This document shows, piece after piece, positions 3,486 to 36,927 of a stretch of 36,927 nucleotides of DNA; positions within the stretch are counted from its first letter, which is position 1, and every line of letters starts with the position of its first letter. The DNA comes from Verrucomicrobiota bacterium (lineage in GTDB: Bacteria; Verrucomicrobiota; Verrucomicrobiia; Chthoniobacterales; UBA10450). The notes under the pieces were generated by a model. That model worked only from the letters and a program-made list of their open reading frames with translations. It was not told where the DNA came from and made no database searches. The position numbers and the translations under genes are program-made. The stretch covers positions 1 through 36,927 of the forward strand of contig QHOS01000193.1 in assembly GCA_003219415.1 (NCBI GenBank), given 5' to 3'.

Positions 3486-4253
3486 TTGTCATTCTGCGCG
3501 CTCGAACGGCAAGTGAAAAACTATCTCCAGCTTAACCTGAACTTGCTTTACTGGATTTTGATTGCGCCGTTTACCGGGCAATTCTTCAAAATCGGTCCGA
3601 TCTTCAGGCAAATGGTGGCCATCGGTGTGCGCGCGACACCGATGGTGGCACTGACGGCGTTCAGCGTTGGCGTAACGCTCGCGATGCAGGCCGCTCATTC
3701 TCTCGAGAGTCTCGGCGCGGAAATGTACATTCCCGATCTGGTCATGCTTACCCTCTTGCGTGAAATGGGACCGGTCTTGATCGCGGTAATCGTAATCGGA
3801 CGCAGCGGCTCTGCCGTGGCCGCGGAACTCGGCACAATGAAAGTGTCAGAAGAAATCGAGGCGCTTGAAGTGATGGCAATCAACCCGGTCCAATATCTGG
3901 TAGTGCCGCGTTTCCTTGCCATGATGGTGATGTTGCCGGCGCTCACCATCTTTGGAAATTACATCGGTATCCTGGGCGGTTGGGCGGTCTGCCGTTTTGC
4001 GCTCGATTTTAATACCGCCGGATATGTGCTCCGCGCGCTCGAGAGCGCCGATACGTGGGATCTGTATTCAGGAATGATCAAAAGCGTTGTTTTCGCATGG
4101 CTCATCATCACAATCTCGTGTAACGCAGGCCTGACTGTCGAAGGCGGCGCAGAGGGTGTTGGTCAGGCAACAACGACTTCGGTGGTCCAGGCACTGCTGG
4201 CAATGTTGGTGATGAACGCGGTGCTGACCGGAATTTTCTTTTTCGCTGCATGA
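3486..4253 (+). CDS. mlaE: MlaE-family lipid ABC transporter permease
   Basis: Inner-membrane permease of an Mla/MCE-type phospholipid transporter. The 255-residue product has the family profile: an N-terminal amphipathic segment, then about five to six hydrophobic helices. It carries the conserved MlaE core LREMGPVLIAVIVIGRSGSA followed by ELGTMKVSEEIEAL, which forms the coupling region for the ATPase. The start is uncertain. The longest frame begins with TTG at 3486, inside a piece of the local repeat family. GTG at 3513 gives a more usual N-terminus (VKNYLQLNLNLLYW). Neither has a convincing Shine-Dalgarno. The stop overlaps the mlaF start by 4 bp (ATGA), so the two are translationally coupled. 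Symbol is by family, not by proof of substrate. Confidence 0.92.
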   Translation: MSFCALERQVKNYLQLNLNLLYWILIAPFTGQFFKIGPIFRQMVAIGVRATPMVALTAFSVGVTLAMQAAHSLESLGAEMYIPDLVMLTLLREMGPVLIAVIVIGRSGSAVAAELGTMKVSEEIEALEVMAINPVQYLVVPRFLAMMVMLPALTIFGNYIGILGGWAVCRFALDFNTAGYVLRALESADTWDLYSGMIKSVVFAWLIITISCNAGLTVEGGAEGVGQATTTSVVQALLAMLVMNAVLTGIFFFAA

Positions 4254-5104
4254 ATGCTAACGCAGAAAACATCATCGAAGTAACCAAGCTCGTCCGAAAA
4301 TTCGGAGACCGCACGGTGCTCGATGAAATTTCTTTTAACGTTCACCGGGGTGAGACAGTTGTTATTATGGGCGGCAGCGGCTGTGGAAAGAGTACTCTCC
4401 TTCGGCACATGATCGGCTCGATGAAACCGACCTCAGGTGTCGTGAAGCTTTTTGGCGAGGAAATCACAATGATGAAGGAGCGCGAGCTCGAACGTGTACG
4501 CCTGCGATTCGGCATGCTGTTCCAATCCGGTGCGCTGCTGGCCTCGCAAACCGTGGGCGAGAACGTGGCGTTGCCGCTTTTGCAACACACTGACAAATCT
4601 CCAGATGAAATCGAAGAGATCGTAAAAAAGAAACTTGAAATGGTTGGCCTGACTGGTTTTGAAGACCTTAAGCCAGACGAGATCAGCGGCGGGATGAAAA
4701 AGCGCGTGGGGCTTGCCCGCGCGCTTGCGCTCGACCCGGAACTGTTATTTAGCGATGAGCCGACCTCGGGGCTGGATCCGATCATGACCGCAGTAGTAGA
4801 TGAACTTACTCTGAAACTGACGCATGGGACTCACATGACCGCAGTGGTAGTCTCCCACGATATGACCAGCTCATTCCGGATCGCGACGCGCATGATCATG
4901 CTCGGACACGGCGGCATTGTGGCGCAGGGTACGCCGGATGAAATTCGGAACAGTCCGAACCCTGAAGTGCAACAATTTATTCACGGCGAGGCTGACGGTC
5001 CGATTCCTTTGAACCTGTCACAAGAAGAACACGAGGACCATCAGCACGTTAAACCTCGCCCCTTCGTTGCAGCACGCCACAGATTTCATCGAAAAACAGG
5101 TTGA
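4250..5104 (+). CDS. mlaF: MlaF-family ABC transporter ATP-binding protein
   Basis: ATPase partner of the MlaE-type permease. The 284-residue protein has Walker A GGSGCGKST at 41-49, a Q-loop at Gln92, the signature ISGGMKKRVGLARA at 145-158 (the SGGMKKR form is typical of Mla/Ttg2A ATPases), Walker B LLFSDEPTSGLDP at 165-177, and the switch His203 in VVSHD. About 35 C-terminal residues after 250 are His/Glu-rich (EEHEDHQHVKPR) and are not needed for the fold. The start codon overlaps the mlaE stop. The gene is followed by 156 bp before the MCE protein. The order E-F-D differs from the enteric FEDCB, and no mlaC or mlaB is adjacent. Confidence 0.95.
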   Translation: MNANAENIIEVTKLVRKFGDRTVLDEISFNVHRGETVVIMGGSGCGKSTLLRHMIGSMKPTSGVVKLFGEEITMMKERELERVRLRFGMLFQSGALLASQTVGENVALPLLQHTDKSPDEIEEIVKKKLEMVGLTGFEDLKPDEISGGMKKRVGLARALALDPELLFSDEPTSGLDPIMTAVVDELTLKLTHGTHMTAVVVSHDMTSSFRIATRMIMLGHGGIVAQGTPDEIRNSPNPEVQQFIHGEADGPIPLNLSQEEHEDHQHVKPRPFVAARHRFHRKTG

Positions 5105-5260: not shown

Positions 5261-6151
5261 GTGAGCTTAATGAAACGCAATCTATCCGACTATTTCGTCG
5301 CCCTGTCCGTGATTGCGTGCAGTGTCATCTTGCTGGCAGCGCTGACTTTCGCGCTTTCTGGTTATCGCTTAAAAAAACCAACGCGAACTTTGCAGATCAA
5401 TTATGAAGACGTTACCGGCATCAAGGTGAATTCCGAAGTGCGTTATGCCGGCGCGCCGGCAGGGCGCGTGATCGCGATGCGTCATCTCACAGCCAAAGAA
5501 CGCGAAGCCAGCGCGAACAAGAAGGACGCCGTGCGAGTCACGGTTAGCCTCAATGACGGAATTCCGCCGCTGCCCACGGACGTTACAGCAACGCTAAGCT
5601 CCGACACGATGCTTTCGCCGAAATTTGTGGCGCTTACCGCAGGGACGCCGGGAGGTCAAACGTTGGCAAACAACGCGGCGATCGAAGGCCATCCGGCGTA
5701 CGGCCTCGAACAAATCACAGCGGCGGCCGGCCCGTTATTCGAGAACGCAAACAAGCTCCTCGATAATCTCAATGTGACTGTCACAGGTTTGAAGAAAGAT
5801 CTTGGTGAATTCACGCCGAAGCTCGGCCCACTGGCTGATTCGTTAAAAATGGATGCGGACCACCTACAAAACATGATCACAAACCTCGAGGGCGTAGCCA
5901 AGGGTGCGGACACGGTGTTCGGCAGTGCTGATAGTTTCATCAAAACGACTGACAAACAGCTTTCTGAAGACTTGAAACAACTGCACGTGACTCTCTTGAA
6001 CCTGAAAGTTGTCACCACCTACGCAAAGGAGCTCGTTGGAACGCTCGCCGCGAAGCCAAACCGCGTCATCTTCAGCGGCAAACCGGCAACGCTCACGCCC
6101 GAATCGGAAATCCTGAAAAGCTCAAAACCTGTGCCGGCACGAAAGCCGTGA
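5261..6151 (+). CDS. mlaD: MlaD-family MCE-domain protein
   Basis: Periplasmic substrate-binding ring component of the lipid transporter. The 296-residue product starts with a basic N-terminus and a single membrane segment (about 12-33). An MCE domain follows (about 42-130; note YEDVTGIKVNSEVRYAGAPA and ATLSSDTMLSPKFVAL), then a long helical tail (about 150-265) like that of needle-forming MCE proteins, and a disordered lysine/proline C-terminus. GGGGAG is 6 bp before the GTG start at 5261, which supports GTG over the ATG at 5270. At nearly 300 residues it is longer than E. coli MlaD (about 180). The 156-bp gap after mlaF holds only short AT-rich repeats, so co-transcription is likely but not shown. 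Confidence 0.92.
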   Translation: MSLMKRNLSDYFVALSVIACSVILLAALTFALSGYRLKKPTRTLQINYEDVTGIKVNSEVRYAGAPAGRVIAMRHLTAKEREASANKKDAVRVTVSLNDGIPPLPTDVTATLSSDTMLSPKFVALTAGTPGGQTLANNAAIEGHPAYGLEQITAAAGPLFENANKLLDNLNVTVTGLKKDLGEFTPKLGPLADSLKMDADHLQNMITNLEGVAKGADTVFGSADSFIKTTDKQLSEDLKQLHVTLLNLKVVTTYAKELVGTLAAKPNRVIFSGKPATLTPESEILKSSKPVPARKP

Positions 6152-21686: not shown

Positions 21687-22194
21687 CTAAAATGAAAAAG
21701 AGCGGCTTGGGATCACCGCTTCAAGTTCAACAAACGCGGTCAGCTTTTTATCGGCGTGCACAACGAACCGCTGTCCATCGTCGCGATGTGCGTCAGCAAT
21801 CCAGATCGTTCGCCCGCTTGAATCAATCGCTGAAACGTAGCCCAAACTCCAACCGGCTTTCTTGAGATTGTCGGCAATCCGGCCTTCCAATACTTCACGC
21901 TCGTCGGGTCCTCCCGCAAAACACCCCGACGACCGAACCAAATCGGATTTTGTCGCCATCCTTCAGCTTGGCGTCAGTAATAGAAACGCTATTGACCTGT
22001 GTCCCATTTGTTGAATGCAAATCCGCCAGCCAATAGGAATCGGCGGCTCTCAGGAGCCTAGCGTGGTGCGCTGATACCGTCGGATCATCAATGACTATGT
22101 GGTTCAATGGAGCACGGCCAATCATGACCATGTCGGGAACCAATTCATGCGTTCCGAGATCAACTCCGTCGCGATTCAGAATGAGGCGAGCCAT
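21687..22194 (-). pseudogene. FHA-domain gene with C-terminal module, split by a frameshift
   Basis: The first frame (21895-22194) encodes a 99-residue FHA domain: IGR at 25-27, SAHH at 41-44 and NGTQVN at 63-68, the phosphothreonine-binding signature, with a GGAG ribosome site before the ATG. It ends with a poor tail (VFCGRTRRA). The overlapping second frame (21687-21959) carries DEREVLEGRIADNLKKAGWS then GRTIWIADAHRDDGQRFVVH and KLTAFVELE, a module found in three other places in the window. Removing one base from the run of four Ts on the minus strand (bases 21918-21921) fuses the frames as VGVFAGGPDEREVLEG. It may be a real frameshift, a homopolymer error, or programmed. The joined protein would have about 169 residues. 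The FHA part alone may still be functional. Confidence 0.75.
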
Positions 22195-22854: not shown

Positions 22855-22995
22855 GTGCGGCCCCCGATTCCAAGTTGCACAAAAGCAGTTAGCTTTTCAT
22901 CCGCTCGCACAACGAAACGCTTTCCGTCGCCATCCTGCGCAGCTGCAATCCAGATCGTTCGCCCGTTAGAATCAATCACTGAGCCAATCGGCTTT
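22855..22995 (-). pseudogene. Decayed copy of the recurrent IWIADAHR/KLTAFVELE module
   Basis: On the minus strand this stretch reads IDSNGRTIWIAAAQDGDGKR followed by FVVRADEKLTAFVQLG. The same module is fused to the FHA gene at 21687. The upstream part (NNLSKADWLSD) is in another frame and is followed by a stop, so the copy is broken and has lost its N-terminal partner. No start codon or ribosome site is suitable. Confidence 0.75.
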
Positions 22996-25333: not shown

Positions 25334-27067
25334 TTAGGGATTGTTGACCACCTGCGGGGCACGTTTGCTCGCTTCAAACTGGGCGCTCACTTTCTGTAGG
25401 CCCGCAGTAAGCGCTTCAATTTGCTTTTGCTGTTTGGCGATTGTCGCTCCTTGTTCCTCCATTCTCTGATGTGCTTTTAGAAACTCGTTGAGCAACATCG
25501 CGTTCACTTGGTCGTAGCGCACGCTGTAGGGTTTTCCTTCTTTATCGCGCACCACCAAGTCAGCGTTCACCTTTTCCACCTCTTCGGCCACAAGTCCGAA
25601 CTGCGATATGCCTGCTGCATCGATTTCCTTCTTGTAACGGAAGGTGACTGGTTTCAGCGCAAAGAGTGCTTCGCTAGCCTCGTCCATTGGCTTAATCTCC
25701 TCTTTAAACCGCTGAGAGGACATAATCGTGCCAAGCTTGCCGGCTGAGTTAATGAACACGGCGGCGCCGCCTGAGGACGTTTCTCCAAAGATACCGCCAA
25801 TATAGCAACTGCTACTTACGTTGGCTCCGGCGACGTTTGCCCCAATGCAGATAACGTTACCGGCCGTGGTTACGTTCTGACCAGCACTATCACCTATCGC
25901 GATATTGTTGCTTCCGCTGGTGTTGTTAGCAAGCGCATCAAAACCGACGGCATTGTTGCGAATCCCCGTAGTGTTGCTACCAAGTGCATCAAAACCGAGG
26001 GCATTGTTTGAATCGCCATCGAGGTTGCTAAAGAGCGCCCCGGCTCCCACGGCGGTGTTGGCACCTGCTTGGCCCAACCCGCTGGAATCATTGTTCGCAA
26101 GCGCGACATCGCCAATGGCCGTGTTGGCAGAGGCGGTGATATTGCTTAACAGCGCGCTCTCGCCAACCGCGTTATTGCTGCCTCCGGTAGTGTTGAAAAA
26201 GAGCGAATTAGCGCCAACGGCGTTATTGAACGCTCCGGTGCCATTGTTGGGATTCCCTTGATTCGAGAACAGAGCGGCCGTTCCAACGGCCGTGTTGTTT
26301 GGGCCTGTGTTGGTTAAAAGCGCTTCAGCGCCAACAGCGGTATTGTTCTCAGCGCTCGTGTTGCTAAAGAGCGACTGGAAGCCGATGGCGGTGTTATATG
26401 CTCCCGTATTGGAAACGAGGGCTTGATCGCCAACAGCAGTATTCTCGGGGTCGGTAATGACTACCCCAAAGGTACTAACGTCGGCACTTCCCAGCTGGCC
26501 GGTCGCAGGATTCACCAACACTGCTTGATTCGGCGCTGCAGGACTCATTGCGGTAATCCCCGCTATAAATACCACTGCGTGAATCGCCGGATCGCCAATG
26601 CGGATCGTGTTCGACTCAGCAGCGAAACCAATATTGCCAATGTCGATGTTGTTACTGCCTGTAGTGAGCGAAAGCCCCGCCTGATACCCTATAGCAATGT
26701 TGCCACTTCCGGTACTGTTGTTAAAGAGCGCGAACGCTCCATTAGCGATGTTACCGGCACCGATCGTATTGTTTAAAAGCGCGCCGGCGCCGGTAGCCGT
26801 ATTGTTGTTGCCGCTGCCGTTGGCCAAAAGCGTTCCAGCGCCTACAGCTGTATTGGCACTCCCAGTGGTGTCACTGAGCAGCGAGAACACGCCAATTGCC
26901 GAATTGTACGTACCACTGCTGAGACTTAGAAGGGCGCTCTGGCCTTCTGCAGTGTTCCCGCCAGGATAGCCGCCGTCTGGCGGCGGATTTACCGCCTGCG
27001 TGTTTTGGGCGAGTGCAAGGCAGACGAGTGCAAATGTCATTAGAACTGGTGGAATGCCTGTTTTCAT
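25334..27067 (-). CDS. Secreted tail-fibre-type protein with S74 chaperone domain
   Basis: 577 residues. A signal peptide (to about residue 25, ALAQNTQA) is followed by PPPDGGYPGGNTAEGQ. Next is a long region of near-identical short repeats of the type NTAVGAGALLNNTTG (about residues 40-330), which resembles trimeric YadA-like head or collar repeats. The C-terminus from about 450 is an intramolecular chaperone of the phage tail-fibre/endosialidase S74 type (SSQRFKEEIKPMD, then RYKKEIDAAGISQFGLVAEE and VNAMLLNEFL). A coiled coil and the ending PQVVNNP follow. Ser450 and Lys455 have the spacing of the S74 Ser-Lys pair. It probably trimerises and cleaves off its chaperone. A paralogue is at 30713-32164. 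Confidence 0.88.
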   Translation of the reverse strand: MKTGIPPVLMTFALVCLALAQNTQAVNPPPDGGYPGGNTAEGQSALLSLSSGTYNSAIGVFSLLSDTTGSANTAVGAGTLLANGSGNNNTATGAGALLNNTIGAGNIANGAFALFNNSTGSGNIAIGYQAGLSLTTGSNNIDIGNIGFAAESNTIRIGDPAIHAVVFIAGITAMSPAAPNQAVLVNPATGQLGSADVSTFGVVITDPENTAVGDQALVSNTGAYNTAIGFQSLFSNTSAENNTAVGAEALLTNTGPNNTAVGTAALFSNQGNPNNGTGAFNNAVGANSLFFNTTGGSNNAVGESALLSNITASANTAIGDVALANNDSSGLGQAGANTAVGAGALFSNLDGDSNNALGFDALGSNTTGIRNNAVGFDALANNTSGSNNIAIGDSAGQNVTTAGNVICIGANVAGANVSSSCYIGGIFGETSSGGAAVFINSAGKLGTIMSSQRFKEEIKPMDEASEALFALKPVTFRYKKEIDAAGISQFGLVAEEVEKVNADLVVRDKEGKPYSVRYDQVNAMLLNEFLKAHQRMEEQGATIAKQQKQIEALTAGLQKVSAQFEASKRAPQVVNNP

Positions 27068-28807: not shown

Positions 28808-28898
28808 GGGCGGCAGCGTGTCCGAAGTTCTGGCGCCTTGGCAAGATTAAATTGGCGTGAAATCCGCGCGTCGCAGTTTGTGTCGATTAGTGATTACG

Positions 28899-29013
28899 GC
28901 GGCGCCCAGCGTCTTTAGAAAATCTCCTCGATATAAATCATCGCGAAAAATCTTCTCACGGCGATCACCCCGGCTCATCAAGTGATAGATTGCGCCTTGT
29001 ATTGAATTCTCAG
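28899..29013 (-). pseudogene. N-terminal remnant of a REP-associated (Y1/IS200-like) transposase
   Basis: On the minus strand one frame reads GAIYHLMSRGDRREKIFRDD followed by LYRGDFLKTLGAA, the conserved start of REP-associated tyrosine transposases. The preceding piece LRIQY is in another frame, so one base is lost next to the GGCGC. The catalytic HUH motif and tyrosine are absent. It lies in the gap between the second GloVer gene and the serine hydrolase. Confidence 0.8.
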
Positions 29014-30404: not shown

Positions 30405-30446
30405 TTGCCGACTCAAGTTCCAAAAACGCGGTCAGCTTTTTCTCTC
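30405..30446 (-). repeat. Short remnant of the recurrent KLTAFVELE module
   Basis: Just after the stop of the small gene at 30447-30701, the minus strand reads RKKLTAFLELESAIC in one frame. This matches the end of the module fused to the FHA gene and of the copies at 22855 and 35960. Only the last 15 or so codons remain. Confidence 0.7.
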
Positions 30447-30712: not shown

Positions 30713-32164
30713 TTAGGGATTATTGACCACTTGTGGTGTCGGTTTATTCGCCGCGAGCTGCGCGCTCACTTTCTCCAAGCCAGCGGTCAAAGCTTCAATT
30801 TGTTTTTGCTGCTCAGCCATTTTTGACTCAAAGTCCTGCTTTAGCTGTTCCACTTTGTGATGTTCCTTGAGGAACTCGTTGAGCAACATCGCGTTCACCG
30901 CATCATAGCGGACGGTGTATGGTTTTCCTTCCGTGTCACGTACCACCAAAGCCGGATTTACGTTTTGTACTTCCTCGGCCACTAACCCGAATTGCCAAGT
31001 GCCTTCGGGGTCAATCTCTTTCTTGTAACGGAAGCTAACTGGTTTCAGGGCGAACAGCGCTTCGCTGGTTTTGTCCATCGGCTTGATCTCGTACTTAAAA
31101 CGCGCCGAGGACGTCGCCACGCCAAGTTGACCGCTAGCGCTTACGACTACTCCCGTGCCTGTCACTGCGGTTCCATTGATTCCAGCGATAAATGTACTTG
31201 TCTGATTCCCACTGCCGATGCGGATCGTAGCCGACTCGCCAGCGACCCCGGGGTTGGCAATATCGATGTTGCTATCGCCTATGGTGAGATTTTCGCCGGC
31301 CCCGGCTCCGATAGCCGTATTGTTCGACCCAGTGGTATTATTGAGGAGTGCGCTGTCGCCCACGGCGATGTTTGAATTAGCAGTCGTGTTAGCGAGGAGC
31401 GCGCCGCTGCCGATCGCCGTATTGAATGCGCCTGTCGTGTTATCAGTGAGTGCTCCGAAGCCCATGCCGGTGTTGCTGTCACCCGTCGTGTTGCTACCAA
31501 GTGCAAAAACCCCGGTGGCCGTGTTACTGATACCAACGTTTTCTTGGAGCGCGAGCGCACCTACTGCAGTGTTGCTCATCCCTATCGTATTATTAAGAAG
31601 AGCATTGAATCCAATAGCTGTGTTCCCGGCGCCGGTGGTGTTCAAAGCGAGTGCGGCAACCCCTTCTGCCGTGTTGCCGCTACCACTGGTATTACTAGAG
31701 AGAGCACTACGCCCGACAGCTGTGTTGTCATCGGCGGTATTAGCAAGCAGAGCGCCATCACCGATTGCAGTGTTGTCGGTGCCTTCGGTGTTGCTGAAGA
31801 GGGCGAACGCCCCGTTCGCAGTATTGTGGCCCCCAGTCGAATTATTTAAAAGTGCTCCTGCACCGACGGCTGTATTGTTGTCCCCGATGTTGGCAAACAG
31901 CGTGCCAGCACCGAGGCCTGTATTGAATTGGCTGTTAGCATTGCTCTTAAGAGAAAACCAGCCAATTGCAGTATTGTATGTACCGCTGGTGAGGTTCAAA
32001 AGCGCATTCTGGCCCTCTGCGGTATTTGCGCCGGGGTAGCCGCCGTCGGGTGGTGGGCTAACTGCCTGCGCTCGCTGCAAGAATGCGACATAAGCAAACA
32101 GGAACGAAACAAGGAATAGACCGCAACGATTGATCGAATTTTGGACTGGAGTCATCGTTTTCAT
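30713..32164 (-). CDS. Secreted tail-fibre-type protein with S74 chaperone domain, paralogue 2
   Basis: 483 residues, a shorter paralogue of 25334-27067. It has a signal peptide (LFLVSFLFAYVAFLQRAQA), PPPDGGYPGANTAEGQ, then a run of the same NTAVGAGALLNNTTG-type repeats (about 60-300), and a sharp change to the S74 intramolecular chaperone (SSARFKYEIKPMD from 352, RYKKEIDPEGTWQFGLVAEE, VNAMLLNEFLKEHHKVEQL). The ending KPTPQVVNNP with a stop is identical in type. Ser352 and Lys357 have the S74 spacing. The DNA repeats are near-identical over about 45-bp units, so unequal crossing-over between the paralogues is plausible. It is likely a trimeric exported fibre. Confidence 0.88.
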   Translation of the reverse strand: MKTMTPVQNSINRCGLFLVSFLFAYVAFLQRAQAVSPPPDGGYPGANTAEGQNALLNLTSGTYNTAIGWFSLKSNANSQFNTGLGAGTLFANIGDNNTAVGAGALLNNSTGGHNTANGAFALFSNTEGTDNTAIGDGALLANTADDNTAVGRSALSSNTSGSGNTAEGVAALALNTTGAGNTAIGFNALLNNTIGMSNTAVGALALQENVGISNTATGVFALGSNTTGDSNTGMGFGALTDNTTGAFNTAIGSGALLANTTANSNIAVGDSALLNNTTGSNNTAIGAGAGENLTIGDSNIDIANPGVAGESATIRIGSGNQTSTFIAGINGTAVTGTGVVVSASGQLGVATSSARFKYEIKPMDKTSEALFALKPVSFRYKKEIDPEGTWQFGLVAEEVQNVNPALVVRDTEGKPYTVRYDAVNAMLLNEFLKEHHKVEQLKQDFESKMAEQQKQIEALTAGLEKVSAQLAANKPTPQVVNNP

Positions 32165-33560: not shown

Positions 33561-33595
33561 AGTCTGTCACGATTTGTTGACTGACCCCTATTTTA
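33561..33595 (+). pseudogene. Transposase C-terminal remnant (35 bp)
   Basis: The plus strand reads SLSRFVD and a TGA stop (33561-33584), followed by CCCCTATTTTA. The same codons and the same flank (reverse complement TAGGGGTCAGTCAACAAA) close the transposase remnants at 36104 and 36807, here in the opposite orientation. Confidence 0.65.
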
Positions 33596-35959: not shown

Positions 35960-36086
35960 CTCCGCAATCCTCTGCGCGTTCTGCCGCACGAATCGCTGAT
36001 TCGAGTTCCACAAACGCCGTTAGCTTTTCATCCGCTCGCGCAACGAAACGCTTCCCATCGCCGCGATGCGCGTCAGCAATCCAGAT
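35960..36086 (-). pseudogene. Truncated copy of the recurrent IWIADAHR/KLTAFVELE module
   Basis: The minus strand reads IWIADAHRGDGKRFVARADE followed by KLTAFVELESAIRAAERAE. It is cut just before IWI, at the position where the transposase remnant begins (about 36087-36095), so an insertion seems to have split it. No start codon is available. Confidence 0.8.
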
Positions 36087-36103
36087 GAATAAAAAAATAG
36101 GGG

Positions 36104-36250
36104 TCAGTCAACAAATTTTGACAGACTCGCAGACTCAAGATACTTCCTGAACGTGGCTGCCACTCTCGGTCTCTGTGTGCGGTATCGGCGAACCTGTTGA
36201 CTCACATTCGCAGCGTTGCGCATCGCCAGTTTGTCGGCAATCCAGCTCTG
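36104..36250 (-). pseudogene. C-terminal remnant of a REP-associated transposase
   Basis: In one frame the minus strand reads WIADKLAMRNAANVSQQVRR, YRTQRPRVAATFRKYLESAS and LSKFVD, then TGA. This is the C-terminal style of REP-associated (Y1) transposases (a [W/x]IA...L.M.[S/N]AANVSQQ helix and a terminal LS[K/R]FVD). Upstream the frame meets stops, so only the 3' 150 bp remain. The flank beyond the stop is CCCCTATTTTTTT. It is in the same orientation as the copy at 36807. Confidence 0.75.
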
Positions 36251-36303
36251 CCCTCGCTACCGTTCGTTCTAAGAGCAAATTTGCCAAAGCCACCCTTCAC
36301 ACG

Positions 36304-36801
36304 TCAGAGCCTCAGCACTGCCATCCACAGGGCTATACCCAGGCCGAAGATGATGTGATTGAACAGGCTTACGCGAGCCAGATGAGCATCACCCGGCGCA
36401 TCCAGTCCCAGCCAGCCCATCCCCTGTGATGGGAACATCAGAAACCAGGGGAAGACCGTGGTGGCCGTTCCGTAGAGGATGGCGCCGAGGGCGGTCGGCG
36501 TCGCATGCACCACAAGCAATAGGCCAAGGTACACAAGGGTCAGCACGATGCCGATCAAATAGTGCGCCGCTAATCCCAAGACTAGTTCTCCTAGCAAGGG
36601 CGGCGTCTGCAGAATGTCCGTGTGCCTGAACTTGCCCCGCAAGAGGTAGCCGATCCAGCGTCCGATCAAATCAGGGCCGGTCCGGCGCGGCCCCCGGCCC
36701 GCGATGCCGAGCCGGAGAGCGATCACGGCCACGACGTCCATGGTAACGGTGGCAAGGGTACCCACAATCAGGCCAACAATGAACGCACGAGGCAGAAGCA
36801 T
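36304..36801 (-). CDS. DUF2938-type membrane protein
   Basis: 165 residues with four to five hydrophobic segments (about 5-32, 67-100, 100-122, 142-163). The N-terminal FIVGLIVGTLATVTMDVVAV and RTGPDLIGRWIGYLLRGKF, and the late FLMFPSQGMGWLG then SLFNHIIFGLGIALWM, are what I know of the DUF2938 family. No enzymatic role is known. The ATG at 36801 is only 5 bp from the TGA of the transposase copy at 36807, and the gene is bracketed by two transposase 3' ends in direct orientation, so it looks like a passenger. Confidence 0.8.
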   Translation of the reverse strand: MLLPRAFIVGLIVGTLATVTMDVVAVIALRLGIAGRGPRRTGPDLIGRWIGYLLRGKFRHTDILQTPPLLGELVLGLAAHYLIGIVLTLVYLGLLLVVHATPTALGAILYGTATTVFPWFLMFPSQGMGWLGLDAPGDAHLARVSLFNHIIFGLGIALWMAVLRL

Positions 36802-36806
36802 AGGGG

Positions 36807-36927
36807 TCAGTCAACAAATCTTGACAGACTCGCAGACTCAAGATACTTCCTGAACGCCGCCGACAGCCTCGGTCTCTGTTGACTCACATTCGCAGCGCTG
36901 CACATCGCCAGTTTGTCGGCGATCGAG
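36807..36927 (-). CDS. REP-associated transposase, C-terminal end (continues beyond window)
   Basis: The minus strand from the window edge reads SIADKLAMCSAANVSQQRPR, then LSAAFRKYLESASLSRFVD and TGA (36807-36809). It is a close copy of the remnant at 36104 but lacks seven codons, removed between two CTGT repeats. The open frame runs to the window edge, so an intact transposase may lie beyond it; only the C-terminus is visible here. Confidence 0.6.
   Translation of the reverse strand, partial: SIADKLAMCSAANVSQQRPRLSAAFRKYLESASLSRFVD

Follow-up and report, generated by a model that had tools for sequence, protein, structure and literature searches.

A DUF2938 gene joined on both sides to transposase 3' ends in a Verrucomicrobiota contig, with orthologues in attC-like arrays

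The window analysed here, a stretch of 36,927 nt that makes up the whole of contig C60 (from a genome of 3.6 Mb in 253 contigs), carries at its right end an intact DUF2938 gene both flanks of which are sharp joins to transposon sequence. In the reading direction of the minus strand, the order is the 3' end of a right transposase copy (36927–36807), 5 bp, the DUF2938 gene (36801–36304) and the remnant of a left transposase copy (36303–36104). We favour serial insertion and truncation of separate element copies as the origin of this arrangement, at a probability of roughly 0.6, with transposition of DUF2938 as a passenger as the main rival.

The initial annotation had described two transposase 3' ends in the same orientation around DUF2938, and this was borne out, as both stop codons (at 36104 and 36807) lie on the minus strand. 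The right copy (36807–36927, minus strand) consists of 39 codons and a stop codon (36807–36809), and its translation ends in ...RKYLESASLSRFVD*. Its reading frame is open through all 39 visible codons as far as 36927, where the contig ends inside the copy, in agreement with the description of it as open to the window edge. The left copy (36104–36303, minus strand) ends in ...RKYLESASLSKFVD* with its stop codon at 36104–36106; blastn aligned it from 36290 to a complete relative described below (L045), and tblastn covered 36311–36111. This copy, of approximately 200 bp, contains a stop codon and a frame change, has lost its 5' part and is dead. The two copies matched at 79% over query positions 8–156 (E 4.4e-34), so their likeness is not due to chance. 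They differ by a 21-nt gap and by 8–9% elsewhere, and therefore do not represent one recent tandem duplication of the element end. The description of the pieces as transposase ends was thus confirmed with one correction, namely that both are C-terminal and no catalytic domain lies beside DUF2938 within the window. A terminal-repeat search between 36128 and 36799 found no 5' element end for the left copy, and one outer element end is seen around the block (36097), the other end of the right element lying off the contig.

Could the block be an artefact of assembly at the contig end? The contig does stop inside a repeat, in an assembly of 253 contigs, but many differences and the 21-nt gap distinguish the copies, which are thus two rather than one collapsed repeat, and DUF2938 stands at the identity level of the same genus; we consider an artefact very unlikely. 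The assembled genome contains seven Y1_Tnp matches. A complete copy of the element was rejected for this assembly, since the C-terminus matched only the two places in the window (E≤0.001), and contig C171 was rejected as the continuation of the right element, since the sequence on the inner side of its end is like that of another short element, seen in L067 and L071. Elsewhere in the window, the minus strand at 28895–28996 carries a relic of a transposase N-terminus with 62% identity to L045 over 34 aa. Two related minus-strand genes (25334–27067 and 30713–32164) contain many NTAxGxxAL repeats, the latter with a Peptidase_S74 chaperone domain at its end.

The joins themselves are tight. The initial annotation placed the gene 5 bp after a transposase stop codon, and indeed CCCCT lies between the TGA of the right copy and the ATG of DUF2938. 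The terminal repeat of the right copy (36800–36830, plus strand) supplies two letters of that start codon, the ATG being the AT of the element's outer end plus the next G. The part of DUF2938 shared by all three genomes that carry it at close identity starts at CGTGCGTTC, and each context gives its own start codon. Homology to the orthologues spans 36309–36789, with element sequence starting within approximately 10 bp on each side. The stop codon of DUF2938 sits at the join to the left remnant, which abuts it, and the terminal repeat of the left copy follows at 36097–36127 (plus strand).

The terminal repeat GGGGTCAG occurs at 36100, 36803 and 33588, and fits GGGGWSAS, the motif given for TIRYT terminal repeats in PMC3733652. 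Among 147 relatives, the terminal-repeat pattern matched in 13 (≤3 mismatches), and the left C-terminus, used as a protein query, in 11, the source genome included. One of these relatives (L045) is complete: it is 1108 bp long, encodes one 345-aa Y1_Tnp protein and has inverted ends GGGGTCAGTCAACAAATCTTGACAG with one mismatch at the 3' end. Two others (L047 and L053) resemble it in being full-length with PF01797 matches, and in all three, inverted repeats flank the transposase on both sides. The L045 protein contains the motifs NHYH and YIHLNP, which fit subclass 2.1 of the Y1 transposases as set out in PMC6006769; that paper equates this subclass with RAYT group 1 and states that it 'probably' corresponds to TIRYT. 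With the NCBIfam RAYT model NF047646, L045 scored 63.2 bits and L047 59.3 bits, both under the curated cut-off of 80, and a Pfam search of the three proteins for a C-terminal HTH domain (E≤0.001) returned Y1_Tnp alone. Placed through its full-length relatives with inverted GGGGTCAG ends, the element appears to belong with the TIRYT or "TIRtron" type (IS200/IS605 superfamily, Y1/HUH transposase). The exact terminal-end pattern had no match in viral contigs.

Four terminal repeats were assembled in the source genome, three of them within 3.3 kb at the right end of the contig, including a solo repeat in the opposite orientation (33561–33594, minus strand). Were four repeats placed at random, three would fall within 3.27 kb about once in 100,000, a figure to be read with the poor assembly of such repeats in mind. 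A case from another genome (G057, L103:4060–5787) comprises a 200-bp mini-element that is complete and another copy that lacks the 5' end and matches it at 98% over 162 bp. This truncated copy abuts an open-frame fragment that has no Pfam match and looks RHS-like by eye, and a large gene upstream of the fragment matches RHS_repeat. The case shows that truncated 3' ends occur elsewhere, and says nothing on gene carriage.

The DUF2938 gene (36304–36801, minus strand) encodes 165 aa and was identified by its reading frame, by the homology to its orthologues and by PF11158 (E 1.8e-27, 96.2 bits compared with a cut-off of 31.4). From its hydrophobic helices the product is probably a membrane protein; an AlphaFold model built from four sequences had a mean pLDDT of 52.5, too low for a structure search. 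A scan of the contig collection returned four loci with relatives. The closest, at 90–91% amino acid identity, are in the Verrucomicrobia MAGs AV71 (L021) and AV38 (L022), soil bacteria of the same genus whose genes are 92.5–92.7% identical to the window gene at the DNA level; two distant loci reached 58% and 42%, and the attC patterns described below had no match there. Within the order, DUF2938 was found in three of 213 genomes, namely the source genome and those of the two orthologue holders (G030 and G027). The protein had no match in viral contigs, and the 23 plasmid records that matched were all below 60% identity. Over 158 codons, dN/dS was 0.36 and 0.24 for the window gene against the two orthologues and 0.14 between the orthologues, which indicates that DUF2938 is under constraint. 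By branch, 10.75 replacement and 7.25 silent changes fell to the window compared with 9 and 22 (Fisher p 0.038, from rounded counts), a hint, in small numbers, that constraint may be relaxed on the window branch.

Both orthologues lie in arrays of attC-like sites. The AV71 contig has six complete sites plus a lone 5' half and a lone 3' half, each of them on the plus strand, and DUF2938 lies between two sites with R''/R' and L''/L' (3828–3946 and 4589–4680). In AV38 the gene directly follows a site at 3839–3959, and downstream of it no attC match was found before the next 5' half at 5805. No transposase sequence touches DUF2938 in either contig. Eight neighbouring genes were scanned, and six have a Pfam family (Imm27, SnoaL_2 twice, two kinds of cupin and one NmrA-like). 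As a control, the attC pattern gave one 5'-half match and no 3'-half match in 400 shuffled sequences; the folding energies of the sites, on four strands, were no better than those of shuffles (z −0.18 to −0.76). In AV71 (L021:5258), beside the cassette array and approximately 0.8 kb downstream of DUF2938, stands a solo terminal repeat like those of the window; such repeats are few among the relatives, yet one adjoins this array. The source genome has 16 attC 5' halves at ≤2 mismatches (0 with a reversed control) and an integron integrase match of 465.5 bits compared with a cut-off of 265 (L082, C191:252–1193). One TAA lies inside this match, which could mean an inactive integrase or an assembly error. 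Within the window, neither attC half was matched at up to 4 mismatches.

DUF2938 thus exists independently of the element, since its orthologues sit in arrays with no touching transposase; as these are untouched by the element, we rejected a native origin of DUF2938 within the transposon. The initial annotation had raised the possibility that two elements captured DUF2938 as a passenger or that it recombined between them, and had named beforehand as the refuting case an outgroup with the gene and no transposase sequence. AV71 and AV38 supply this case, in that no transposase sequence touches the gene, and AV71 has the solo element end approximately 0.8 kb downstream. The proposal consequently stands in part: both flanks are sharp joins to element sequence, and the relatives show that the gene is not native to the element, but a later capture of DUF2938 by the element is possible and would be compatible with these orthologues. 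A genome with an empty site was not found among 82 other family genomes, of which two matched the neighbouring gene, at 36–38% identity, at loci with no other nearby sequence in common with the window. No second block of terminal repeat, DUF2938 and remnant was found in the source genome, in the 147 relatives or in the 213 genomes of the order.

To the left of 36097 lies a dispersed coding module (...IWIADAHRDDGKRFVVHADEKLTAFVELE...) matched at 12 places in the source genome with variable ends; those in the window are at 21722–21833, 22871–22982, 30408–30444 and, shortened beside the left terminal repeat, 36000–36086 (minus strand). Homology in this last copy begins at query position 35 (window 36086), the part absent being that upstream of IWIADAHRGDGKRF. 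The earlier claim that the module is cut at the element boundary is likely as regards the shortening, because eight of the 11 other copies start further upstream (the query counted), but the shortening is not unique to the site, because one copy starts at the same point (C235:6095) and two start later.

These data bear on a composite origin, in which the working ends would be the right copy's 5' end, beyond the assembled sequence, and the left copy's terminal repeat, transposase and DUF2938 would move as one single-stranded unit, and the cut in the module near 36086 would mark the target. Such a unit would account for the tight joins, the common orientation, the shortened module at the left end and a right copy whose frame stays open up to the contig end. 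However, neither copy shows a 5' end, only a single such block was found, and the C235 copy of the module begins at the same point with no element beside it. We regard this origin as unlikely, if the strongest of the alternatives.

A gene brought in by homologous recombination, between an element copy beside DUF2938 elsewhere in the genome and a copy already here, seems distinctly improbable. The two copies do have approximately 150 bp in common, in direct orientation and at 79% with gaps, but this homology is short and diverged, and the second join falls in the interior of the left remnant, which end-to-end recombination alone does not give.

Under serial insertion and truncation, DUF2938 would be a rare and probably laterally acquired gene, found in arrays in two genomes of one genus and outside any array seen here. 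TIRYT-type copies would have accumulated separately in the 3.3-kb stretch; one would have ended directly upstream of DUF2938, with the AT of the start codon coming from its terminal repeat, and a second, now the remnant of approximately 200 bp, would have been truncated so that its interior meets the stop codon. This history supposes that the two copies arrived by separate events and were then truncated, that DUF2938 was once part of an array in this genome and moved out, instead of having always stood outside one, and that its expression may continue, perhaps coupled to the transposase reading frame. We favour it because the orthologues lie in attC-like arrays with no element touching the gene; because the source genome has both the integrase match (465.5 bits) and the 16 attC half-sites; because the element copies differ (21-nt gap, 8–9%); because three of four repeats lie within 3.3 kb, and clusters of TIRYT-type terminal repeats are described in PMC3733652; because unrelated sequence adjoins a truncated 3' end in G057 as well; and because DUF2938 is under constraint (dN/dS 0.24–0.36). 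Against it, two independent accidents that fit DUF2938 tightly on both sides would be a coincidence, the clustering of repeats also fits a composite unit, and the solo end 0.8 kb from DUF2938 in AV71 goes beyond what separate accidents predict. Because of the tight two-sided fit and that solo end, capture keeps a modest probability. A single genome does not reveal in which order the events took place.

The strongest form of capture is that a single-strand transposon of the TIRYT kind picked up a gene of an integron array and is able to move it, enclosed by the transposon's 5' end on one side and a second copy's 3' end on the other, the start codon being supplied by the terminal repeat. Cassette genes would thereby have a way to leave integrons without attC; we think this improbable. 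If the block does move, integron cassettes and Y1/HUH transposons, both of which act on single-stranded DNA, would become linked, and cassette genes would gain a route to settle elsewhere in the chromosome. As seen, one gene of integron arrays stands outside an array and beside element remnants, and integron arrays are recorded in a genus of Verrucomicrobia. The locus is mostly an ordinary relic, with movement of DUF2938 as a passenger of the element a possibility.

Compared with TIRYT elements or TIRtrons, the element is alike in that GGGGTCAG fits GGGGWSAS, in the NHYH and YIHLNP motifs and inverted ends of L045, in a 3' end that overlaps the transposase gene and in the clustering of its ends, whereas the window copies differ in being 3' pieces with a foreign gene between two of them. 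Composite transposons and passenger-carrying insertion sequences likewise have a gene between two element ends, but here one outer end was read and neither a target site nor movement was seen. With chromosomal integron gene cassettes, the locus shares orthologues that lie in one-direction arrays with attC-like sites in AV71 and AV38, whereas the DUF2938 gene of the window has no attC match and stands outside an array.
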